In this document: positions 24,422 through 38,073 of the stretch, piece by piece
Position numbering within the stretch: the first letter of the stretch is position 1
Layout of the letters: the number at the start of each line of letters is the position of its first letter
Assembly: GCA_005772825.1 (NCBI GenBank)
Contig: SXIP01000085.1
Span: 1-39,598 of the forward strand
Source: Methylococcaceae bacterium
GTDB taxonomy: Bacteria; Pseudomonadota; Gammaproteobacteria; Methylococcales; Methylomonadaceae
DNA: 39,598 nt
Direction of reading: 5' to 3'
The notes under the pieces: generated by a model
The model's input: only the letters and a program-made list of their open reading frames with translations
What the model was told of the DNA's origin: nothing
Databases searched by the model: none
Made by a program: the position numbers and the translations under genes

Positions 24422-25618
24422 ATGAACACAAATCTTGATACCTCCAAAAAACAATCGCTCATGTCACGCCGCGTTAAACTGAGCAGACGAGCATCCCTGT
24501 TAGCAACGCTTGCCGCTCTTCCGGTGATGGCGGTCGCGCAACCGATATTACTGGACGATATTTATTTTAGCGGCGGCGCGCCTTTCAATAATAACTCACT
24601 GGCTGTTCAGGGTGGCGGCGCTCCGAAGACAACTTATCTCAAATTCAACAAGGCGATTAATGTACCGGCGGGGACCACGTCAGCCAAAATAGCCAAAGCC
24701 ACGCTCAAACTTTATGTGCAATCGGTCACTCACGCCGGCACTTTCCGCGTGTTTCCGGTCGATCCGACCTCCCCGACAGCAGTAACCGAGCCCGGTCCTT
24801 TTGCCGCACCAGTGCTGGGCCCTACCCCGGTCGGCCCTGCAGTAACGGTGAATAAAAAAGACGAATGGGTCAGTGTCGATATTACCCCGTTAGTGAAAAG
24901 CTGGTTCCCGCCCGCTGCTATAGGCAACAAGGGTATCGCTTTAGTGGGTAGCGCCCTGGCTAACTTCGCCTTTGATAGCAAGGAGTTTAACGGCACCAGT
25001 CACGAAGCCGTGCTGGAAATAGAATACGTAGGTGAAGGTCCGACAGGCCCGACCGGACCGACCGGGCCGCAAGGCGCCGCCGGCCCACAAGGCCCCGCGG
25101 GTCCTGTTGGGCCGGTCGGGCCAACCGGCGATACAGGCCCCACCGGCGCAACCGGAGCTACCGGAGCTACCGGCGCAACTGGAGCAACAGGTCCTAGCGG
25201 CGTCATCAACGCCGGCTTTATCGAAACCGACGGATTTGTCCCTGCATCAGCCATCACGACAAATATTACAATGATTACGGCGCCGCTTGCGATGACCATC
25301 ACGGGGCCTAACCAGGTAATACACTTTACCGCTCATAGAGCCTTGGGATCTACAGCCGTAGGCGGAGCTACGGCAAGCATCATGCCCTGTTACCGTGTCA
25401 CCGGCTCAGGCGATGTAGGACTGGTTACAACGAACCTGTTCCTGACTAATATGCATGTCACACAAAATGATCGCTCGGAATTCACGGTCAGTCGAGTCAC
25501 CCCTGTCCTGGCCCCAGGTTCCTATGATGTCGGTATGTGCGCTTCTTCCAGTGTTCCCGCCAATTGGAATTTCAACGAGGATGGCTACACCTCCGCGCTG
25601 GTTATCCAAAAACCATAA
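24422..25618 (+). CDS. Secreted DNRLRE-domain protein with collagen-like stalk, paralogue 1
   Basis: A 398-residue exported protein. The signal peptide has a basic start including SRRASLL (Tat-like) and a likely cleavage after AVA. Residues about 40-202 resemble the DNRLRE/CBM96-type beta domain of surface proteins ([41 protein letters not shown]). Then come 18 uninterrupted Gly-X-Y triplets, including five GAT units in a row. The C-terminal tip of about 130 residues has two cysteines (MPCYRV and VGMCAS) that the paralogue shares and may form a disulfide. A surface or extracellular trimeric stalk is inferred from the collagen repeat; the ligand is unknown. AGGA precedes the ATG. Confidence 0.85.
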
Positions 25619-26111: not shown

Positions 26112-27296
26112 ATGAAACACGATAGATCCAACTTACGCTCACTAATGGCACCGCACCGTGTGATGCTTGGCAAAAGAGCTTCTCTATTGGCCGCGCTTAC
26201 GGTTCTTCCAGCCATGGCGGTCGCTCAACCGATATTACTGGACGATATTTATTTCAGCGGTGGCGCGCCTTTCAATAATAACTCGCTGGCCGTACAGGGC
26301 GGCGCTGCAAAAAAGACGACTTATCTGAAGTTTAACAAAGCGGTTAATATACCGGCAGGCACCACATCAGCCAACATCGCCAAAGCCACGCTCAAACTTT
26401 ATGTACAGAATGTCACTAAAGCCGGTACTTTCCGCGTGTTTCCGGTGGATCCAACCTCCCCTACCGCGGTAACCGAACCGGGTCCTGCTGTAGAGCCTGT
26501 ATTAGGGCCAACGCCGGTCGGTGCTGCGGTGACAGTAAACAAACAAAACGAATGGGTTAGCGTCGATATTACTCCGCTAGTGAAAAGCTGGTTTCCACCG
26601 GCGGCGGTAGGTAACAAGGGTATTGCTTTAGTGGGTAGTTCCTTAGCCAACTTCGCCTTCGATAGCAAGGAATTTGCCGGCACCAGTCACGAAGCCGTGT
26701 TGGAAATAGAACTCGTAGGAGCTGGACCAACAGGTCCAACTGGGCCTGTCGGACCGGTCGGACCAACAGGCCCTACAGGTCCTACCGGTCCGACAGGCCC
26801 AATTGGTCCGATCGGTCCGATTGGGCCAATCGGTTTGACTGGCGATACCGGACCGACAGGCCCAACAGGACCTACCGGACCTAGCGGTGTTGTTGCAGCC
26901 GCTGACAATGCTGCGGGCGCCCCAAATCCTTTAACAGGCACCAGTTTTGCCACCTCAAACCTGCTAGCTCCGGTAACCGTGACGGTCGACGGGACCCAGG
27001 TGATACACATTACTTCAACGGCTTCATTAGGTACTACGCTTGGCGCTAGCGGTTTGGGTCTTCGCCCTTGTTATCGCGTCAGCCCTGCCGGTACGCTTAA
27101 CTTCGCCAACAGCGGACCGGACGGAATATCAGTATTGGCAGGCCAACGGGTATCAATGTCTGTTACCGGTATTACACCGGTCTTGGCGGCGGGTGCTTAT
27201 GACGTTGGTATGTGCGCATACGCTGCTACTCCCGGCAACTGGAACAACAATGAGTTTGCTGAAACGTCGGCGCTGGTTATCAAACCGGGTCTTTAA
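26112..27296 (+). CDS. Secreted DNRLRE-domain protein with collagen-like stalk, paralogue 2
   Basis: A 394-residue paralogue of the preceding gene. The signal peptide ([19 protein letters not shown]) and the N-terminal beta domain are nearly identical to paralogue 1. The stalk again has 18 Gly-X-Y triplets, but of a different composition (runs of GPT and four GPI units). The C-terminal tip is clearly diverged apart from the two cysteine segments (RPCYRV, VGMCAY) and the end (TSALVI). Conserved base, equal-length stalk and variable tip suggest the two proteins sit in the same surface structure and bind different partners (inference). AAGGA precedes the ATG at a fair distance. Confidence 0.85.
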
Positions 27297-27414: not shown

Positions 27415-28377
27415 CTAAACAACAAACACATCCCCACCGCTATTACGGGCGCTGGCGACACTAAAACTCAAATTATCAAACTGTGCGAATTGTCGTCTGG
27501 CCTGTCGGGTCAGCGCTTCCGCTTTATCCACTCCATCAACGGCACAAAATCCGGTCGGTCCCCACGAGGTTTGGCCGATGGCGACCGCGCCTTGTTGCGC
27601 CAGCCATTGCATGGCTGCCGCCACTTCAGGACTGGTAAAAATACCACCTTGAGCAGAAGCAAAGTGTTCGCCGACCGAACGCTGCAATTGACTAATGACT
27701 TCACCAAACTCAATGATGTTATTTTCAGCAACGGCGGGCAATCCTCGCATCAACAATAAGTAACACAAGCGCGCCGCTTCCAGTTGCGGAAAGGCCGGCA
27801 ATGCATTAAAAGCCTGTATTTCCTGCTGACCATGCAAGCCTTGGCCGCGTTGGTCCAGCACCAGGATAAAACGCCAGGTTTCGGGAATGTCCAGATGCAC
27901 CAACACCGGCGGGGTAATCGTCTTTTCGCCGCGGCCTCCATCAACGACCAACCCACCCTGTTCAAACACACCGATGCCGATGCCCGAACGCAAGCCCCTG
28001 TCCATGACCGAAGCAATATCTCGCACTGTCAGTCCCAGGTCATAAAACGCATTCAACGCAGAACCGATGGCCAGCGACATTTGCGTACCCGAACCCAATC
28101 CCACATGCTCCGGGATAGCGGACTCGATGTTGATATGGAGCTTATCGGACACATTTAAGGCATGGCACAACATAGTCAGACATTTGTCGGCGCGCTCGGC
28201 AGAGGGACCGGTAATCAGGCGTTGCCGTGCGCCCGCCATCGACAGGCGGGTGGCATGTTCATTGAGCGCAATACCGATGCTGCCGAAATGACGCCCTAAT
28301 GATCCGCTTAAATCGATAAAGCCCATGTGCAATCTGGCGGGGGCGTAAACGTTGACTTTAGAATGTTGGACTATCAA
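27415..28377 (-). CDS. Beta-ribofuranosylaminobenzene 5'-phosphate (beta-RFAP) synthase
   Basis: First committed enzyme of H4MPT synthesis. It joins a pABA-type benzoate with PRPP, releasing CO2 and pyrophosphate. The 320-residue protein belongs to the GHMP-kinase-like beta-RFAP synthase family: YAPARLHMGFIDLSGSLGR near the N-terminus and the glycine-rich HVGLGSGTQMSLAIG at 91-105. The C-terminal part has QTSWGPTGFCAVDG. It is last in a minus-strand group after the HAD and nucleotidyltransferase genes (83-base gap). pABA could come from pabC in this window. Confidence 0.93.
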   Translation of the reverse strand: MIVQHSKVNVYAPARLHMGFIDLSGSLGRHFGSIGIALNEHATRLSMAGARQRLITGPSAERADKCLTMLCHALNVSDKLHINIESAIPEHVGLGSGTQMSLAIGSALNAFYDLGLTVRDIASVMDRGLRSGIGIGVFEQGGLVVDGGRGEKTITPPVLVHLDIPETWRFILVLDQRGQGLHGQQEIQAFNALPAFPQLEAARLCYLLLMRGLPAVAENNIIEFGEVISQLQRSVGEHFASAQGGIFTSPEVAAAMQWLAQQGAVAIGQTSWGPTGFCAVDGVDKAEALTRQARRQFAQFDNLSFSVASARNSGGDVFVV

Positions 28378-28460: not shown

Positions 28461-29129
28461 TTACTTTGAGTCTTTAATGCAAGCCAACACCTGGGTCAAA
28501 TCGCTCAGCATCCAATCGCACAGTTGAACAGTTGAGGGATCAACAGGCAAACACGACGGAATAAACACCGACTTGGCCCCGGCCCTGGATGCCGCCAGGA
28601 TACCGGCATGAGAATCCTCAAGAACTAGACACCGGTTTATCGGCACTTGTAACGATGCTGCCGCCTTTAAAAAAATATCCGGGTCCGGTTTGCCTGACGG
28701 GACATCATCCCGACTGATGATGATTGGGAAAGCATCGGGGATACCGGCCAGCATCAGGCATTCACGGGCGTTGTCGGCGCGGCTATTGGTTGCCAGACAA
28801 TAAGGTAGTTGTTGCCGGACGATAAATTCCAGCAATTCGCTAAAGCCGTGCTTGATTTTTATACCCTGCCTGCCGACAGTGTCGCGCCAAATATGAGCGG
28901 CTGTGCGGTTAAATCCCGGCAAGTCAAAATCAGGACCGCACAAGTCAATCAACATGCGCGTTATAGCAACGCCGTTCAGTCCCGACAGGGACAGGCAAAA
29001 TGCGTCCGAAAGCTGATAACCCATCACTCCAGCAGCTTGTTGCCAAGCAACGTGGTAAGTGCTTTCGGTATCCAGCACCAGTCCGTCCATATCAAAAATG
29101 ACGGCGGCAAAATCGGCTGACTCAAACAT
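28461..29129 (-). CDS. HAD-superfamily phosphatase (beta-phosphoglucomutase-like)
   Basis: A 222-residue HAD hydrolase with the nucleophile motif VIFDMDGLVLDTE (D13, D15), a helical cap, the threonine/serine motif in CLATNSRA, the lysine in PSGKPDPDIF and the acidic motif VLEDSHAGI. The substrate is unknown. It overlaps the nucleotidyltransferase gene by 8 bases and precedes beta-RFAP synthase, so a cofactor-phosphate or nucleotide by-product is a possible target (inference). Confidence 0.88.
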   Translation of the reverse strand: MFESADFAAVIFDMDGLVLDTESTYHVAWQQAAGVMGYQLSDAFCLSLSGLNGVAITRMLIDLCGPDFDLPGFNRTAAHIWRDTVGRQGIKIKHGFSELLEFIVRQQLPYCLATNSRADNARECLMLAGIPDAFPIIISRDDVPSGKPDPDIFLKAAASLQVPINRCLVLEDSHAGILAASRAGAKSVFIPSCLPVDPSTVQLCDWMLSDLTQVLACIKDSK

Positions 29130-30051
29130 GAATCACCTTGATATATTCACCGTGCGCTTCACGCGTGGACCCGACCAAGATACGTTTACGGCCGTCCGCA
29201 GTTTGCTCCACGATACCCGATACTTCGACCGTTTCACCGGCAACAGCCTGGCCGGTATAGGTGGCGGTAAAACTGACAACAGCATCGATATGTTCATGGT
29301 CTATTTTAAACCGGGCCGGATAATCAAAAGCATGCGTGTCATCAACAATCTTGCACTGCAAGGTGATGGCGCCGTGTTTTTGATGCCTTGCAGGCTTGGA
29401 TCGCGGAGCATCGTCAATAAAATTCAAATCAAACTTTCGTCCGTTAATGACCGCTTTATTGACTTTGCGCCGTTCATGCCAGACATATTCGGCAAAACTT
29501 AAATCACAGGAACGGCGTTGGTAAGATTGTCGCCAATCGTGTTCATTCAGCGCCTGCAAGTGCCCGCTGTCAATCAATTTTCGGATAATGGCCCGACATT
29601 GATGAAAAACCGTCCTGCCGTAACAGATTAAATCAATGTCCGAACTGTGTTTCTGCACGCCTATCAATAGCGAGCCGGTGATTCCGCATTGCGTTAAGTC
29701 CAGGCCGTGTTCTTGCAATAGCCCGCAAAGTTGCAGCAGGTCCCTTTCAACCGCGTCATGCTGATTTGACTGCATGATGTGTTGCAGTCGCTGTCTGGGT
29801 CGATGATGCTTGACGATGCGGCTTGTCGCGACGGCGTGTAAATGCGCATCCAAGACCGGCGAATAGTGCAGATAATCGGGATGATGTCGCTGCAAAAAAG
29901 CGTTTGCCGCTTCAGTGGCAATTTTTTCCCAACCGGCGGTTCGCTGCACATAGCGTAAAAAACACAGCACTTTGCCGTGTTCGGTACCGTGTTCCACGAT
30001 AGCGAAACGTAATCCTTCAGCGGTTTCTATAAAGTCTTTGGCGAAAAACAT
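29122..30051 (-). CDS. Predicted nucleotidyltransferase, archaeal-like, in the H4MPT island
   Basis: A 309-residue protein with a polymerase-beta-type nucleotidyltransferase core: GS at 126-127, D138 and D140 in SSDIDL, and a third acid D208 (KFDLNF). The N-terminal part (FIETAEGLRFAIV then VLCFLRYV) recalls predicted nucleotidyltransferases common in archaea, as far as I remember them. The C-terminal region (about 220-309) looks like a separate small beta domain. No characterised function is known to me. It is first of a minus-strand group with the HAD and beta-RFAP synthase genes, and divergent from the ATP-grasp/mch genes. Confidence 0.7.
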   Translation of the reverse strand: MFFAKDFIETAEGLRFAIVEHGTEHGKVLCFLRYVQRTAGWEKIATEAANAFLQRHHPDYLHYSPVLDAHLHAVATSRIVKHHRPRQRLQHIMQSNQHDAVERDLLQLCGLLQEHGLDLTQCGITGSLLIGVQKHSSDIDLICYGRTVFHQCRAIIRKLIDSGHLQALNEHDWRQSYQRRSCDLSFAEYVWHERRKVNKAVINGRKFDLNFIDDAPRSKPARHQKHGAITLQCKIVDDTHAFDYPARFKIDHEHIDAVVSFTATYTGQAVAGETVEVSGIVEQTADGRKRILVGSTREAHGEYIKVIHV

Positions 30052-30118: not shown

Positions 30119-30205
30119 AACATATACCAGTTATTTTTACATTTACCATTCTCTGCACTTCAGCATGAGAACCGGTCAGACAACGCGGGCATCAGCAAGT
30201 TTCCT

Positions 30206-31315
30206 TTGCAATCAATTGAATTCATTATCCTTATTTCCTGTTCGGGGCGTATGCTTGCGCAGGCGGCAAAGATGGAAAACCTGAAACCGCTGGTTATTGA
30301 CTTGTTTGCCGATCTCGATACGAGACATTATGCTGAAGATTTCCGTCAGGTCCCTTCACTGGCCAAAGCCGATATAACATCGGCGATAGACTACTTTATT
30401 GAACGCTATGCCGTAACGCATGTTATTTACGGCAGCGGTTTCGAATCGTATCCGGAAAGCCTGTTTTATCTGGATAGCCGACTTATCATTCTGGGTAATA
30501 CGCCTGAAACTTTTTTATCCTTGCAAAATAAGCCGTTTTTTTTTGCGGAATTGGCGAAGTCGGCTATCCCCTACCCTGCCGTTGCTTTTCATGCGCCCGA
30601 TTTTGTCGATGACTGGCTGGTTAAGCCAATGCAGGGCCAAGGCGGTGCGGGAATAAAGCGCTACCGACCCTGCGACCGACTGGAATCATTCATTTATTGG
30701 CAACAATATCAACACGGTACACCGCATTCGGTGTTGTTTTTGGCAGACGGAGACAAGGCTCAAGTCATTGGGTTTAATCGCCAATGGCTGATCGATTTGG
30801 GTCAAGATCGGGAATTTATTTTTTCCGGCGTTATTAACAGCAGTGATTTATCGAATACTCAGAAACGACTGGTATCCGATTGGCTAAACAAACTTGTACC
30901 GGCATTCAGACTTAAGGGATTAAATTCGCTGGATTTTATTCTAACTGACGAGCATCTTTCCGTGCTCGAAATTAATGCGCGGCCTTCGGCCAGTATGCAG
31001 CTATATAATGATGATTTATTGATCCGGCATATCACCGCCTGCATCGCAGGCTTGAGTTCCGAAGACATAGCCCCCATTGTGCGTAATGGCCCGCGTTATA
31101 CGGCTTATCAAATTGTCTATGCAATTCGCGATGTAATAATCCCGGACCGATTTGACTGGCCTGACGGCTGTATGGATTTACCTGACACTGGAGTTATCTG
31201 TCGCGCAGGACAGCCCATTTGCAGTATTATTGCCCACCAAAATGACTCAGAGCATGTCCAGGCGCAGCTTCTGAGTCTACAACAATTCATCATCACTAAA
31301 CTGGAAAGGTTTTAA
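30206..31315 (+). CDS. ATP-grasp protein of the H4MPT/methylofuran island (OrfY-like)
   Basis: An ATP-grasp-fold protein of about 369 residues. The glycine-rich ATP-binding loop is [12 protein letters not shown] (139-150) and the metal-binding end is [12 protein letters not shown] (253-264). The N-terminus should begin with a strand like [16 protein letters not shown], and TTG at 30206 is the only usual start codon close to it. The frame stays open back to 29972, but that part overlaps the divergent gene and looks noncoding. ATP at 30251 (ATG) is an alternative. The ligase substrate is unknown. It ends five bases before mch. Confidence 0.8.
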
Positions 31316-31320
31316 CCCCC

Positions 31321-32304
31321 ATGGAATATCAAGCTAGCGTTAATAAATTGACTCAACCCCTGGTGCAGCATTTGCTCGCCAATGCCGATCTTTTGCGAGT
31401 GGCAGTACAGCGCCTGGAAAACGGTTGCACAATTATCGATGCCGGTATCAAGGTACCGGGCGGATTGGAGGCGGGACGCATTATTGCTGAAATTTGTCTG
31501 GGCGGCATGGGTACGGTCACCATCAGTCACAGTGCTTATACCGATAACTGGCCATTGTCGGTTAACGTTCATACCGGCAATCCGGTTCTGGGTTGTCTGG
31601 GTAGTCAATATGCCGGCTGGAGCCTGTCGCATGAAAAATATTACGCCTTGGGTTCAGGGCCTGCCCGCGCGATGGCAACCAAGTTAAAAGACGGCAAGCA
31701 GGAGCCGGTTGAAGAGCTATATAAAGAGTTAGATTATCTGGATACAGCCGATACCACCGTGCTGGTCATTGAAAATGACGCCATTCCGCCGCTGGCTATC
31801 GTTGAAAAAGTCGCGGCAGCTTGTAAAGTCGACCCTGCAAACCTGACTATTATCGTGACACCGACCAGCAGTCTGGCTGGTGGCGTTCAAGTGGTGGCGC
31901 GCGTACTGGAAGTCGCGATGCACAAAGCCCATGCCCTGCATTTCCCGCTCGAGAATATTATTGACGGTAGCGGCAGTGCGCCGATCTGCCCGCCGCATCC
32001 GAATTTTGTTAAAGCCATGGGCCGGACTAACGATGCCATTTTATTTGCAGGCCAAGTGCATCTGTTTGTTAAAGGCAGCGATGAAGCGGCGGAAAAATTG
32101 GCTAAGGAATTACCCAGCTCCACCTCTAAAGATTACGGCAAACCGTTTGCGGACATCTTTAAACAATACGAATACGACTTCTTCAAGATTGACGCCATGC
32201 TGTTCAGTCCCGCCAGCGTCATCGTGACGGCTGTGGATTCAGGCAAGAGTTTCCGCGCCGGCAAGCTGGACAATGCGTTATTGGACCAGTCATTCGGGTT
32301 ATAA
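31321..32304 (+). CDS. mch: Methenyl-H4MPT cyclohydrolase
   Basis: It reversibly hydrolyses methenyl-H4MPT to formyl-H4MPT in formaldehyde oxidation. The 327 residues match the family throughout: [12 protein letters not shown] at the start, [29 protein letters not shown], and [20 protein letters not shown] followed by TNDAILFAG. It lies directly after the ATP-grasp gene and before the DUF3147 gene, and is a hallmark of H4MPT-dependent C1 metabolism. Confidence 0.98.
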
Positions 32305-32682: not shown

Positions 32683-33597
32683 GTGGGTCGATTAGTTATT
32701 TTCACCGATGATCCCGGTTGGCATGGCAAGCAATTGCGCCTTGCTTTTGCCGGCCTCGGTTACAGCACTGAGTTTGTATCGTTAACAGAATGCCGATTCA
32801 GTATTGAACCCGATCAGCAACCGTTAATTATCCCCGGCTTTGAGCAAGCCTTGCCTGATGCGGCCTTTGTACGCGGCGTACCGGGCGGTTCGCTGGAAGA
32901 AGTGGTTTTATACCTGGATATTCTTCATGCCTTAAAAGCGATGTCTATCCCCGTTTACAATGACGGACACGCCGTAGAACGCAGTGTCGACAAAGGTATG
33001 ACCAGCTTTTTGCTGCATAACGCGGGATTGCCTACACCGGCCACCTGGGTTTTGCGTAATCGGGCCGATGCCTTGGCGATTGCTGAGGCGGAATTGAAAA
33101 AAGGCAATTTTCTGATCAGTAAACCCTTATTCGGTTCGCAAGGCGAAGGAATTCGCCGCATTGAAAAAATGACCGATTTATTCTGGCTGACCGGCAGTAA
33201 AGGCGTCTATTATCTGCAACGATTTGTGCATTGTGCGGGCGTGGGTTTTTCCGATAACCGCGTATTTGTGATTAACGGCTGTACAGTTGCAGCGATGCGC
33301 AGGCGAGGTAAATCATGGTTGAACAATGTTGCACGCGGCGCGAGTTGTGAACGTATTGAACCGGATACCGAATTAGCTGAGTTAGCAGTTAAAGCAACGG
33401 CTGCACTGGCAATGGATTATGCAGGTGTCGATATTATTCAAGATAAGGAGGGACATTATATGGTCATTGAAGTCAACAGTATTCCTGCATGGAAAGGACT
33501 GGAAAGTGTTTGCGATATCAATATCGCCGCATTACTGGCAGATGATTTAATCAGCCGCCGAGTCAAAATGACTAAAATCATTGCCGCTGTTTCATGA
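32683..33597 (+). CDS. RimK-like ATP-grasp ligase of the H4MPT island (Orf5-like)
   Basis: A 304-residue ATP-grasp protein of the RimK/MptN type. A lysine and glycine-rich loop lies at 147-157 (KPLFGSQGEGI) and the metal site at 261-272 (VIEVNSIPAWKG). It also shows NDGHAVERSVDKGMTS and a LPTPATWV segment typical of amino-acid ligases. RimK relatives add glutamate; in archaea MptN adds glutamate to H4MPT. Adding glutamate to a C1 cofactor is therefore likely but not proven. The GTG start at 32683 has AAGG eight bases upstream. It overlaps the next gene in an ATGA arrangement. Confidence 0.88.
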   Translation: MGRLVIFTDDPGWHGKQLRLAFAGLGYSTEFVSLTECRFSIEPDQQPLIIPGFEQALPDAAFVRGVPGGSLEEVVLYLDILHALKAMSIPVYNDGHAVERSVDKGMTSFLLHNAGLPTPATWVLRNRADALAIAEAELKKGNFLISKPLFGSQGEGIRRIEKMTDLFWLTGSKGVYYLQRFVHCAGVGFSDNRVFVINGCTVAAMRRRGKSWLNNVARGASCERIEPDTELAELAVKATAALAMDYAGVDIIQDKEGHYMVIEVNSIPAWKGLESVCDINIAALLADDLISRRVKMTKIIAAVS

Positions 33598-34448
33598 TTT
33601 CTCCAAAGCTTCTCAGCGATTTTTATCAACAGGCTTGCGAGGAAGAATTGCAGGCGTTTAAGCCAGGTAACGTCAGCATATATGCCGATGGTCATGATAT
33701 GACCGTGGCTGATTTTAGAACAAGCGCCGAAGTTAGCGCCGCCCCGCTTTGCAATCCCGATTATAGTTTGGGCGAAAAAATATTTTACGCCGTCAAGGCC
33801 ACGCGTGAGGCTGTCGCTTGTAATACCAATTTAGGTATTATTTTATTGTGCGCTCCCCTCATCCAGGCAATCAATTATATACAGCCGGGAATGACATTAA
33901 GACAAGCATTGCATCAGGTTCTGGCCTCAACAACGGTGGAAGATGCCGACTGGGTTTTTAAAGCAATATCGCTAGCATCGCCCGGCGGCTTGGGCGAATC
34001 GGATGAACAGGATGTTAAATCAAAAGCCTCGGTTACCTTGCTCCAGGCCATGAATTTAGCCAGTGCAAAAGATCGTATTGCACTTCAATATAGTTCCGAT
34101 TACAAAGATGTTTTTGATTTTGCAATTTTCATGTATAATGATTTTATGGCTAAATGGGGAAGAAGGTGTTGGGCAACTGTGGCCGTTTATGCAGGGTTGC
34201 TAAGTCAATTTCCCGATAGCCATATAGTAAGAAAATTCGGCAATCAGCACACTGAAATGGTTGCTGAACAGATGATTCTGCTTAGCAAAGAGTTAACTAG
34301 AACGGATAATCCTGAGCTCATTATGCCGTTGCTTCATCAAATAGATCAGGAGCTTAAGTCAAAAGGTTTAAATCCCGGTACTACGGCAGATATGACTGTA
34401 GCGACAGTATTAGCAGTATTTTTACAAGATTATATTGGCAACATTTGA
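33594..34448 (+). CDS. CitG-like (triphosphoribosyl-dephospho-CoA synthase family) protein of the H4MPT island
   Basis: A 284-residue all-helical protein related to CitG/MdcB, which transfer a ribosyl-triphosphate group to dephospho-CoA. Seen are AFKPGNVSIYADGHDM, SLGEKIFYAVKATREAV, CNTNLGIILLCAPL and SPGGLGESDEQDV. No citrate lyase or malonate decarboxylase genes are near. This branch (Orf7 of methylotroph clusters) is a constant neighbour of fae and mch, so it probably handles a ribosyl or nucleotide intermediate of H4MPT or methylofuran (inference). Its ATG overlaps the preceding stop (ATGA). Confidence 0.88.
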   Translation: MISPKLLSDFYQQACEEELQAFKPGNVSIYADGHDMTVADFRTSAEVSAAPLCNPDYSLGEKIFYAVKATREAVACNTNLGIILLCAPLIQAINYIQPGMTLRQALHQVLASTTVEDADWVFKAISLASPGGLGESDEQDVKSKASVTLLQAMNLASAKDRIALQYSSDYKDVFDFAIFMYNDFMAKWGRRCWATVAVYAGLLSQFPDSHIVRKFGNQHTEMVAEQMILLSKELTRTDNPELIMPLLHQIDQELKSKGLNPGTTADMTVATVLAVFLQDYIGNI

Positions 34449-34539: not shown

Positions 34540-35055
34540 ATGGCAAAAATCAATAACTTACGTGTTGGCGAATCTTTAGTTGGCGATGGCAATGAAGTTG
34601 CTCATATCGATCTGATGGTCGGACCTAGAGGTTCAGCAGCTGAAACCGCATTTGCAACCTGCTTAACCAATAACAAAGACGGTTTTTCCAGCCTGTTGGC
34701 TGTTGTTGCACCTAATTTGATGGTTAAACCTGCAACTGTTATGTTCAACAAAGTAACAATTAAAGGTGGCAAGCAAGCTGTTCAAATGTTTGGCCCAGCG
34801 CAACGCGGTGTTGCCATGGCTGTTGCTGATTGTGTGGAAGACGGTACAATCCCAGCAGACGAAGCAGACGATTTATTCGTATCAGTTGGTGTATTTATAC
34901 ACTGGAATGCAGAAGACGATGCAAAAATCGAAAAATTCAACTATGAAGCAACAAAAGAAGCCTTAAAACGCGCTGTTGCCGGCTCGCCTACCGCAGCCGA
35001 AGTTGTTGCACAAAAATCTACCGCCAAACATCCGTTTGCAGCTAACAACGTATAA
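34540..35055 (+). CDS. fae: Formaldehyde-activating enzyme
   Basis: Fae condenses formaldehyde with H4MPT to methylene-H4MPT. The 171 residues fit the family, with the N-terminal [20 protein letters not shown] carrying the catalytic histidine, and [24 protein letters not shown] lies eight bases before the ATG, and codons look biased toward T/A-ending forms compared with neighbours, as expected for a very highly expressed gene. The T-rich 91-base gap upstream may hold its own promoter, but none is clear. A strong terminator follows at 35165-35194. Confidence 0.98.
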
Positions 35056-35162: not shown

Positions 35163-35885
35163 TTAAAAATACCCCGGTTTACCGGGGTATTTTTTGCCTG
35201 AAACATTCAATATATCTTCACGTATAATTGCCCCTGAATGCAACGCGCTGGCAATAAGCGCGAGCTCAATACCTATCTGTTTTAACGCCGCTAAATCAGC
35301 GCTATTTCTTATACCTCCGGCAGCAACAAACCTTTTATCAGGATATTGCCTGCAAAAGTTGTTTAACTTGGTTAAATCAGGGCCACAGTTTCCGCCTACG
35401 CAATTCAGCGTCATGATAATAACGATGTCCGGCCATAGGGCCTGATTGTAAAAAAGACTCTTTGCTCCCAGCGCTTCAGCAGCAGAATAGTCCAAAGAAA
35501 GAACAAAGTTATTATTGAAGGATTTAAGCTCAAAAATTGTTTCATCGTTATAAGACTCACTTCCCAACACCGGCAAATAATTACCGGGTTGCCTTGATAC
35601 CTTGCTGTACACCTGATAACCACTATCCACCCAAAACATGATTTTTGGAAAAGCGGCCAATATATCGCTGATTAATTGTTTATGGTCACCCTGTCCGGTA
35701 ATGGCATTCAAATCGGCAATATAAAATGTGTCGAAATCATAAATACGCAGGAACGCGTTGATAACCTGATAAACATCCGATGATTCACACAGCCTGCTCT
35801 TAATCGGCTGGTAATGCTCACGCTGTCCTTGCTTGGCATGAACAACAATGCCGTCTTTCAAATCGATTACCGGAATTATTTTCAT
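35163..35885 (-). CDS. HisA/HisF-related TIM-barrel protein of the C1 island
   Basis: A 240-residue relative of the histidine enzyme HisA. It keeps IPVIDLKDG with D8 and the second aspartate in LSLDYS (D132), and a phosphate-binding AAGGIRNSADL (188-198), so catalysis is plausible. Such HisA-like proteins occur in archaea and methylotrophs with H4MPT and are not part of histidine synthesis; no his genes lie here. I start at MKIIPVIDL (35885); a longer frame to 35948 adds 21 uncharacteristic residues. The last codons and stop lie inside the terminator hairpin shared with fae. Confidence 0.88.
   Translation of the reverse strand: MKIIPVIDLKDGIVVHAKQGQREHYQPIKSRLCESSDVYQVINAFLRIYDFDTFYIADLNAITGQGDHKQLISDILAAFPKIMFWVDSGYQVYSKVSRQPGNYLPVLGSESYNDETIFELKSFNNNFVLSLDYSAAEALGAKSLFYNQALWPDIVIIMTLNCVGGNCGPDLTKLNNFCRQYPDKRFVAAGGIRNSADLAALKQIGIELALIASALHSGAIIREDILNVSGKKYPGKPGYF
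35165..35194. terminator. Bidirectional terminator between fae and the HisA-like gene
   Basis: AAAAATACCCCGG and CCGGGGTATTTTT form a perfect 13-base stem with a TTTA loop. It ends in a T-run on the + strand and has an A-run before it, so it can work in both directions. It covers the last codons of the minus-strand HisA-like gene. Confidence 0.93.
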
Positions 35886-36055
35886 AAAATAAATGTTGTT
35901 GCGGGACACGGGATACAATAGCACAGACTGAGATACACTTAACATCACACCCGCAAACCACTCTGATAACCGACTCTTCCGACCTAAAAAACGAGTATTT
36001 TTAATTCATTTATGCTTATGATGAATACCGAATATTTTCAACCCTTGATCCCGTC

Positions 36056-37030
36056 ATGAAAATATTGATTTTCGAATATATCAGCAGTGGTGGCTTCAAT
36101 AAGCAGGAATTGCCTGAATCCCTGGCCGATGAAGGGCGCTTGATGCTGCAAGCCTTGCTTGATAACTTCACGACAATAAAAGACATGGAACTCACAGTTA
36201 TGCTTGACAGCCGTCTCGCCGACTCAATCAATACAGCAGGAATAAATACCGTCATTATCGGACCGGACCATAACAGTGAAGAAGAATTTGTCCGCCTAGC
36301 CAGCCATTGTGATGCCGTATGGCCTATAGCACCCGAATTTGATGGTCTACTCCAAACGCTGTGCCGAACCGTTGAATCGATGGGCAAGCTATTATTGACA
36401 TCGCCTCCCGATATGGTCGCCATTACCGGCAACAAGTTTTATACTTGGCAACACCTCAATCAGCAGAGCATAGCGACTGTTCCAACCCGCTTGTTTGACG
36501 GCGTGAATTATGCCCCCGGAGAATGGATAATAAAGCCTGTTGATGGCGCGGGCTGTGCGGACAGTTATTTGATCATCGATCAGCAAGACTTTGACCTGAT
36601 GTCCGTACGAAACGGGCAATACATTATTCAACCACATATAACGGGTAAAAAAACCAGTTTATCCTGCCTGTTTAAACAAGGCCAAGGCTGGTTATTGTGC
36701 GCCAACTTGCAGCATTTCAGCATTATCGACAAGCAATATCATTTGTCGGAAATCACAGTGAATTACCCTGGCGATTTACGCTTATATCGGGATATAGTCG
36801 AAAACATCGCCCGCGCCTTACCAGAACTATGGGGTTATGTCGGTATTGACTTGATAGAAACACCGGAACATATCTTAGTACTGGAAATAAACCCGAGACT
36901 GACCACCTCATTTACCGGCATATACGAAGCTACAGGCATTAATGTTGCTGAAGCGGTACTGCAATTACTCAACGGCCAGCCTGCATTAAGGGCAACCAAC
37001 AATCAATCCATCACTATCAGGGTAAAATGA
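36056..37030 (+). CDS. ATP-grasp ligase of the C1 island (MfnD-like)
   Basis: A 324-residue ATP-grasp protein with the N-terminal strand MKILIFEYISSGG, the ATP loop IIKPVDGAGCADS (158-170) and the metal site VLEINPRLTTS (275-285). The start motif and length resemble MfnD, the archaeal tyramine-glutamate ligase of methanofuran synthesis (family recall, not checked). A role in attaching glutamate to the aromatic part of methylofuran is likely. Its stop overlaps the next start codon (ATGA). Confidence 0.85.
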   Translation: MKILIFEYISSGGFNKQELPESLADEGRLMLQALLDNFTTIKDMELTVMLDSRLADSINTAGINTVIIGPDHNSEEEFVRLASHCDAVWPIAPEFDGLLQTLCRTVESMGKLLLTSPPDMVAITGNKFYTWQHLNQQSIATVPTRLFDGVNYAPGEWIIKPVDGAGCADSYLIIDQQDFDLMSVRNGQYIIQPHITGKKTSLSCLFKQGQGWLLCANLQHFSIIDKQYHLSEITVNYPGDLRLYRDIVENIARALPELWGYVGIDLIETPEHILVLEINPRLTTSFTGIYEATGINVAEAVLQLLNGQPALRATNNQSITIRVK

Positions 37031-38073
37031 ACTCATATATTATCGGCTGGGATATAGGCGGTGCCCATGTCAAAGCAGCGGTCATGAATCAAGCGGATGA
37101 AATTATTGCCGTTGTCCAGAAGCCCTGCCCGTTATGGAAAGGCTTGGCACAATTGCAACAAGCCGTAATGACCATCATGCGAGAGCTACCCGCAATAGAG
37201 TACTGCCATGCCATCACGATGACAGGGGAACTGGTTGATTTATTTGCCGACAGGGATGATGGCGTTAAGCAAATCATTGCCGCCATGCGTGAGTTCTTAC
37301 CCGAAACCGAGCTATTAATCTTTGCAGGCTATGCAGGTATGCTACCTGCTGCACAAATTGAACCCCGGCATTATCAAGCAATAGCCTCTGCCAACTGGTT
37401 GGCAAGTGCCATCTTTGCTGCGCAAAAAGTCAGCACTGGATTATTTGTTGATGTGGGCAGCACTACAACCGATATACTGTTGTTTAATAAAGGCAACGTA
37501 TTGGCAGAAGGTTACACCGATTACCAACGCTTAATATCACAAGAACTGATTTATACAGGGATTGTCAGAACCGCAGTCATGGCCGTTGCGCAAACCGCCA
37601 TTGACGACGGCAAGGAAATCGGCATCATGGCGGAATATTTCGCAACCATGGCGGATGTTTACCGTTTAACAGGCCAGTTGAATGAAGCGCACGACCAAAC
37701 CGAAACAGCAGATGGCGCGGAAAAAACCGTCAACGCCAGCGCCAGACGATTATCGCGCATGATAGGCTGCGATTTTTCTCCTATCGAACTACCGCGATGG
37801 CAACGATTCGCTGAAAACATACGCGCCCAGCAATTACAAAAAATCCAGCGAGCTTGTCAGCGCCAATTATCCCGACACCCATTGGCCGACAATAGTCCAT
37901 TGGTAGGCGCCGGGATAGGACGGTTCCTGGTGCGACAAATTGCAACATTATCTGCTCGCCCTTATCTGGATTTTTGTGATTTATTTTCCGAATCGTCCAA
38001 GCAGACAGCCATAAAACCAGCCGATTGCGCACCGGCAGTGGCTATAGCCTGCCTAGCCAAAGAGTTTTGCTAA
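37027..38073 (+). CDS. H4MPT-linked C1-transfer pathway protein (MfnF-like)
   Basis: A 348-residue member of the actin/ASKHA-like family annotated as probable H4MPT-linked C1 transfer pathway protein. Its N-terminus is IIGWDIGGAHVKAAV and a second phosphate loop is GLFVDVGSTTTDILLF (about 138-153). As I recall, the archaeal member MfnF joins the furan and tyramine-glutamate parts of methanofuran, so this gene and its MfnD-like neighbour probably act in consecutive steps for methylofuran. Translation is coupled by an ATGA overlap. Confidence 0.9.
   Translation: MNSYIIGWDIGGAHVKAAVMNQADEIIAVVQKPCPLWKGLAQLQQAVMTIMRELPAIEYCHAITMTGELVDLFADRDDGVKQIIAAMREFLPETELLIFAGYAGMLPAAQIEPRHYQAIASANWLASAIFAAQKVSTGLFVDVGSTTTDILLFNKGNVLAEGYTDYQRLISQELIYTGIVRTAVMAVAQTAIDDGKEIGIMAEYFATMADVYRLTGQLNEAHDQTETADGAEKTVNASARRLSRMIGCDFSPIELPRWQRFAENIRAQQLQKIQRACQRQLSRHPLADNSPLVGAGIGRFLVRQIATLSARPYLDFCDLFSESSKQTAIKPADCAPAVAIACLAKEFC

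Follow-up and report, generated by a model that had tools for sequence, protein, structure and literature searches.

A three-domain nucleotidyltransferase paired with a HAD phosphatase near the C1 genes of methanotrophs, and its possible place in methanopterin synthesis

The stretch of DNA analysed here (the window) comprises 39,598 nucleotides of contig SXIP01000085.1 from a Methylococcaceae bacterium (assembly GCA_005772825.1) and contains an island of C1 genes (Table 1). The gene under study, NT, has an ATG start and lacks internal stops, whereas stops interrupt the opposite strand over these positions. A first-pass annotation, made from the letters alone, had described it as the first gene of a group with a HAD phosphatase and a beta-RFAP synthase, embedded in a C1 cofactor island, and our data bear out both descriptions: the group lies on the minus strand, and OrfY, Mch, Orf5, Orf7 and Fae are encoded alongside. 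The beta-RFAP synthase, MptG, catalyses the first committed step of H4MPT synthesis; the protein encoded in the window reaches 171.8 bits against TIGR00144, over the cut-off of 113.5, and 188.7 bits against NF040726, under the cut-off of 328. NT and the phosphatase are coupled in an operon, in which the 8-bp overlap of their reading frames suggests translational coupling. The block NT-HAD-MptG is inverted relative to OrfY-Mch in the window and collinear with it in other genomes. On the plus strand, a gene encoding a small membrane protein lies between Mch and Orf5. Next to mptG, a tandem pair of paralogous genes (24422-25618 and 26112-27296) encodes proteins that combine a CBM96/DNRLRE domain with collagen-like repeats.

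Table 1. Features of the window around NT (positions in the window; strand in brackets).
Feature	Position	Strand	Basis
NT, three-domain nucleotidyltransferase, 309 aa	29122..30051	(-)	ORF, alignments, AlphaFold model
NT, N-terminal small beta-barrel, residues 1-97, weakly Sm/KOW/SH3-like	29761..30051	(-)	best Z 5.2
NT, Pol-beta-type nucleotidyltransferase core, residues 98-215	29407..29760	(-)	AlphaFold model and structure comparison
NT, C-terminal OB-fold, residues 222-309	29125..29388	(-)	SSB, RPA and HIN-200 OB matches, Z 7-8
Codons of catalytic D138, I139, D140 of NT	29632..29640	(-)	alignments
Codon of catalytic D208 of NT	29428..29430	(-)	alignments
8-bp overlap between the end of NT and the start of HAD, ATGTTTGA	29122..29129	(-)	
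HAD-IA phosphatase of 222 aa, the neighbour most regularly found with NT	28461..29129	(-)	HAD_2, E 5.7e-27
MptG, beta-RFAP synthase family	27415..28377	(-)	TIGR00144, NF040726
ATP-grasp protein at the OrfY/MyfA position, transcribed divergently from NT, start uncertain	30149..31315	(+)	
Mch, methenyl-H4MPT cyclohydrolase	31321..32304	(+)	
Orf5/MyfB-like glutamate ligase of the RimK/MptN family	32683..33597	(+)	
Orf7, CitG family	33594..34448	(+)	PF01874, E 1.6e-66
Fae, formaldehyde-activating enzyme	34540..35055	(+)	
Orf17-like protein of the HisA/HisF family	35163..35948	(-)	
MfnD-like ATP-grasp protein	36056..37030	(+)	
Orf9/MfnF-like protein	37027..38073	(+)	

The acidic residues that the first-pass annotation had singled out as catalytic, D138, D140 and D208, are placed as it had given them and are invariant, both in a 19-member alignment (19/19) and among the non-Streptomyces members of a wider one (55/55). 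NT thus possesses the G-S ... D-x-D ... D catalytic set of the Pol-beta nucleotidyltransferase superfamily. The window protein scores 15 bits against Pfam NTP_transf_2, under the cut-off of 21, and has no match in NCBIfam; PF01909 is matched by 18 of the 19 members at E up to 1 (best 1.1e-6), and the PADLOC model PDC-S09 by eight (best E 0.0065). An AlphaFold model, for which 33 sequences from the window and from genome contigs of relatives served as input, has a mean pLDDT of 91.7 and consists of a beta-barrel, a Pol-beta-type core and a C-terminal OB-fold. Residues 98-215 superimpose on TUT7 with Z 8.0 (88 aligned residues, 3.0 A) and the core on DNA polymerase beta with Z about 7, values at a level where common arrangements and chance similarity still score, so that the assignment of the core rests on catalytic motif and fold together. 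The first 99 residues, when modelled alone (pLDDT 87.5), gave only weak Sm/KOW-type matches with a best Z of 5.2, and this likeness may be merely a common arrangement. Fold searches with the domains returned nothing at E below 0.001, no relative of NT was found among solved structures, and our literature search found no paper on the gene. In comparison with the Pol-beta superfamily (PF01909 / PF18765), NT shares the G-S motif, the D-x-D, the third Asp and the superposition of the core, but differs in the Sm-like barrel and the OB-fold that flank it. Judged by its alignments and its predicted structure, NT is an intact nucleotidyltransferase of an uncharacterised three-domain family outside any curated family.

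The domain architecture itself can be read in a way that is independent of any cofactor. OB-folds and Sm-like barrels are typically found in proteins that bind nucleic acids, and NT might be a terminal or repair enzyme that binds RNA or DNA through both barrels, with a C1 neighbourhood that is historical. Its OB-fold resembles those of SSB, RPA and HIN-200, LysRS chains head the Foldseek list, the N-terminal barrel is weakly Sm/KOW-like, the core is similar to TUT7 and poly(A) polymerase, and in genus g194 NT adjoins the gene of the CCA-adding enzyme (L043, L201). We nevertheless regard such a role as rather unlikely: the upstream neighbours of NT differ by genus and the HAD gene alone is constant, a HAD protein of the beta-phosphoglucomutase/sugar-phosphatase type would hardly be expected to act as an RNA phosphatase, and the families listed for the 19 members include no match to the PolyA_pol head or its RNA-binding site (PF01743, PF12627). 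The charge of the protein argues weakly in the same direction, as the OB domain is net negative in 18/19 members and the pI is at or below 7.0 in 14/19. Weak matches of two of the 19 members to a model of the MntA antitoxin (best E 0.017), and the position of NT in an operon with C1 genes, would also be consistent with an enzyme that regulates C1 metabolism by nucleotidylating a protein, as MntA or GlnE do. This explanation appears improbable to us, because the HAD gene is the sole constant neighbour, which would probably leave NT without a standing HEPN-type partner, and because the neighbouring phosphatase is of a small-molecule type.

Full-length homologues of NT outside the methylotrophs are encoded on linear plasmids of Streptomyces (nucleotidyltransferase-domain proteins, e.g. 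WP_331761115.1). A tblastn search in plasmids recovered 20 Streptomyces records with 25-27% identity to NT; by BLASTP, one of these homologues shows 27% identity over 246 aa, and a profile of two Streptomyces sequences aligns with NT in hhalign along its full length (275 columns, probability 99.5%, E 2.8e-22). In contrast to NT, the two homologues examined have a His in the place of D208 and have lost the N-K of the basic stretch. On two of the plasmids (L143, L144), the NT-like protein without the third Asp is encoded together with an APH-type kinase and a methyltransferase. To our knowledge Streptomyces lacks H4MPT. Among the genomes drawn from the class, NT was restricted to those with mch; the presence of these remote homologues in Streptomyces would speak against such a restriction, although they are devoid of the third Asp. 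The first-pass annotation had also compared the N-terminus with archaeal predicted nucleotidyltransferases (COG1665), whose N-terminal, core and C-terminal motifs may resemble those of NT. Viral contigs, phages and plasmids yielded no archaeal homologue, and a match in Haloarcula was rejected as chance, for it lies inside a GDP-mannose dehydratase.

The distribution of NT follows that of mch in one direction only. Among 219 genomes drawn from the gammaproteobacterial class, mch is present in 32 and NT in six, all of which (6/6) also possess mch; none of the 187 mch-negative genomes has NT. The association is significant by Fisher's exact test with all six genomes (6e-6) and without the window's order (4/4; 3e-4); if each family is counted once, the probability that the two outside hits alone arise by chance is about 0.02. 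The co-occurrence thus represents few independent lineages, namely the window's order and two further families, f80 and f140, which account for four of the six NT-positive genomes and whose proteins are 44-47% identical to the window NT. Had NT been common in bacteria without H4MPT, the first-pass annotation would have considered its cofactor hypothesis refuted, and the class draw gives no sign of this. On the other hand, 26 of the 32 mch-positive genomes lack NT. In a draw of 299 genomes from the phylum, a protein search for NT recovered the window's own genome only, whereas Mch (PF02289) was found in 14 genomes of a phylum draw of the same size (299); the 13 other mch-positive genomes, all outside the order, gave no credible match to the 19-member NT profile when searched at E up to 10 (13/13; best 0.63 over 24 positions). 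Because 26/32 and 13/13 mch-positive genomes are without it, NT is not an obligatory or core step.

Within the order (201 genomes) both genes are present in 172 genomes, NT only in four (G512, G535, G565, G572), mch only in four (G316, G555, G566, G571), and neither in 21. Each of the eight discordant assemblies is a draft in 280 or more contigs, and the four with NT only have at least 340. Of the double negatives, 19 are named and two derived from totals; the named ones comprise G366 from the window's own family and 18 genomes from families f77 and f78, and the table is for this reason confounded by phylogeny. In the own family, NT is present in 188 of 201 genomes; among the 13 without it, nine have mch (drafts of 200-610 contigs) and four do not. 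Leaving the remote Streptomyces homologues aside, NT occurs with mch in 6/6 NT-positive genomes of the class and in 172/176 of the order. NT is accordingly nested inside the mch-positive set and is accessory instead of core to the H4MPT pathway. For the cofactor step that had been proposed, this nesting and the pairing with HAD and mptG speak in favour, and the many mch-positive genomes without NT speak against.

Neighbouring genes were scored at the best 80 loci of 555 relatives, all of them in the window's order and as close kin not independent, and a locus was counted only if its flank was long enough or the gene was found. Under this rule the HAD gene is present at 67/76 loci, MptG at 58/71, OrfY at 24/55 and Mch at 25/54, and HAD follows directly downstream of NT on the same strand at 51/75. 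The gene order NT-HAD-MptG-OrfY-Mch is common in the window's family. In the remainder of the order, HAD lies within 2.2 kb downstream of NT on the same strand at 22 of 26 loci (the exceptions are L044, L047, L050 and L204, the last with only 183 bases downstream), and MptG is found at one of the 26 (L045). Beyond the own family, NT has no C1 genes beside it in most genomes of the order and is also separated from Orf7 in most genera. The pairing of NT with HAD is thus retained far from C1 genes, and NT-HAD-mptG also moves as a unit: in genus g164 the trio stands 22 kb (L055, G462) and 765 kb (L060, G358) from mch. Within the order, HAD is the constant partner of NT and MptG a frequent one. In families f80 and f140, NT has neither a HAD nor a C1 gene as a neighbour at any of the four loci; in f80, NT is immediately upstream of the gene for 6-phosphogluconate dehydrogenase (gnd) at both loci (L210:7300-8769, L212:7343-8809), and in f140 it adjoins a PpiD-type isomerase gene at both (the isomerase was profile-tested in one locus). 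In genus g187, the strand that carries NT also encodes a Fae-like protein, 3-6 kb upstream (L046, L189, L190, L196-L198); that of L046 (13457-14563) has 368 aa, with a Fae domain at residues 194-358 and an uncharacterised N-terminal half.

The phosphatase is closest to the beta-phosphoglucomutase and hexitol phosphatase families, under their cut-offs, and among 25 of its 35 matches listed it exceeds the cut-offs of generic HAD-IA models only. This affinity, together with the position of NT directly upstream of 6-phosphogluconate dehydrogenase at both f80 loci and the kinase and methyltransferase that accompany the Streptomyces homologues, would suit an NT whose substrate is a sugar or sugar phosphate of formaldehyde assimilation (the RuMP side) or some unrelated small molecule, while HAD serves as a sugar phosphatase. 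The pairing of mptG with NT at 58 of the 71 scorable near loci speaks against this possibility, to which we give only a small chance.

The explanation that we favour, with a probability of roughly 0.4, is that some methylotrophs use NT and HAD to modify their C1 cofactor on its pterin (H4MPT) side. NT would be a metal-dependent enzyme of the Pol-beta fold with two metal ions bound by D138, D140 and D208, and the conserved ERRK-NK stretch would bind the triphosphate. Support for the transfer of a group from a triphosphate, at its alpha-phosphate, comes from the catalytic set together with the basic E-x-R-K-x-N-K stretch. In this scheme the acceptor would be a ribosyl- or ribityl-bearing methanopterin precursor, held by the N-terminal barrel and the OB-fold, and one of its hydroxyls or phosphates would attack the alpha-phosphate of the donor, giving a phosphodiester and pyrophosphate. 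HAD would take off a sugar phosphate, either before or after this step. The substrate, the donor, the order of the steps and even the assignment of the product as a cofactor are what we infer here. The ribosyl 5'-phosphate made by MptG needs a later dephosphorylation, for which HAD would be a natural candidate. That MptG yields a ribosyl 5'-phosphate is stated in PMC6787355.

Comparative data on the cofactors are more consistent with the pterin. According to PMC8141765, the methanopterin of M. extorquens is without phosphate and hydroxyglutarate, and the methylofuran of Methylomicrobium album is that of M. extorquens, of the ordinary tyrosine type. Since M. album thus has an ordinary methylofuran, a step specific to Methylococcales is more easily placed on the pterin side than in methylofuran synthesis; if M. 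album has NT, as expected for its order, the step of NT would fall on the pterin side. A role in methylofuran synthesis was set aside on the same ground (PMC8141765). Several late steps of methanopterin synthesis are without an assigned enzyme, and an inventory of 2011 counted about seven unknown proteins for methanopterin (PMC3087415). As a gene pair that only some of the methanopterin-using bacteria possess and that is linked to beta-RFAP synthase, NT-HAD would be a concrete candidate. A role on the pterin side predicts that the methanopterin mass of NT-bearing methanotrophs differs from that of Methylorubrum. Should NT-HAD act on RNA or on sugars instead, this would still be the first function for the three-domain family.

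A more specific form of the pterin-side proposal involves Orf7. In the malonate and citrate enzymes, CitG/MdcB forms a triphosphoribosyl compound, which CitX/MdcG joins to a hydroxyl as a phosphodiester. By analogy, Orf7 and NT might be a cofactor counterpart of MdcG-MdcB or CitX-CitG that builds the phosphodiester tail of H4MPT: Orf7 would move ribose triphosphate from a nucleotide onto the ribityl chain of dihydromethanopterin, and NT would join the phosphoribosyl arm to a hydroxy acid, e.g. 2-hydroxyglutarate, with release of pyrophosphate. This idea was framed from the chemistry before weak MdcG matches turned up. These concern PF10620 (MdcG), a small-molecule family of specific function, matched by 4/19 NT members with a best E of 0.021; the window NT matches none of the MdcG/CitX models of NCBIfam, and the best member matches, at E 0.02-0.07, are not significant. 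In hhalign, NT and MdcG align over 43 columns that cover the motif only (probability 24%; 0.1% against CitX). MdcG and CitX are also missing from the fold-search lists, which has no bearing on the question. A homology with MdcG was therefore rejected, as the profile-profile likeness is limited to the nucleotidyltransferase motif, and what is left is an analogy: NT has this motif in common with MdcG, and a CitG-family protein, Orf7, is encoded in the same island. MdcG differs in its length: with about 220 aa it has no room for the additional OB-fold. Orf7 follows the CitG pattern overall, with NTNLG in the place of the NTH(R/K)G of MdcB/CitG. The motif-only likeness to MdcG, the NTNLG of Orf7 and the usual separation of NT from Orf7 outside the own family all count against the Orf7 scheme, which we consider improbable. 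If it were true, full H4MPT or a similar phosphodiester form would be the product in NT-bearing bacteria, those without NT, such as Methylorubrum, would stop at dephospho-H4MPT, and the missing last steps of methanopterin synthesis would be assigned in bacteria and possibly in archaea. By the formula of H4MPT, the masses of the two reduced forms are 776.263 (full) and 566.270 (dephospho), 209.993 Da apart.

As a minor observation, the gene of the CCA-adding enzyme is found immediately upstream of NT-HAD in genus g194 and immediately upstream of mch in family f80 (L043:10465-11715, L201:7245-8663, L214:9842-11071, L216:9000-10226), so that one housekeeping gene adjoins methanopterin-linked genes in two lineages.
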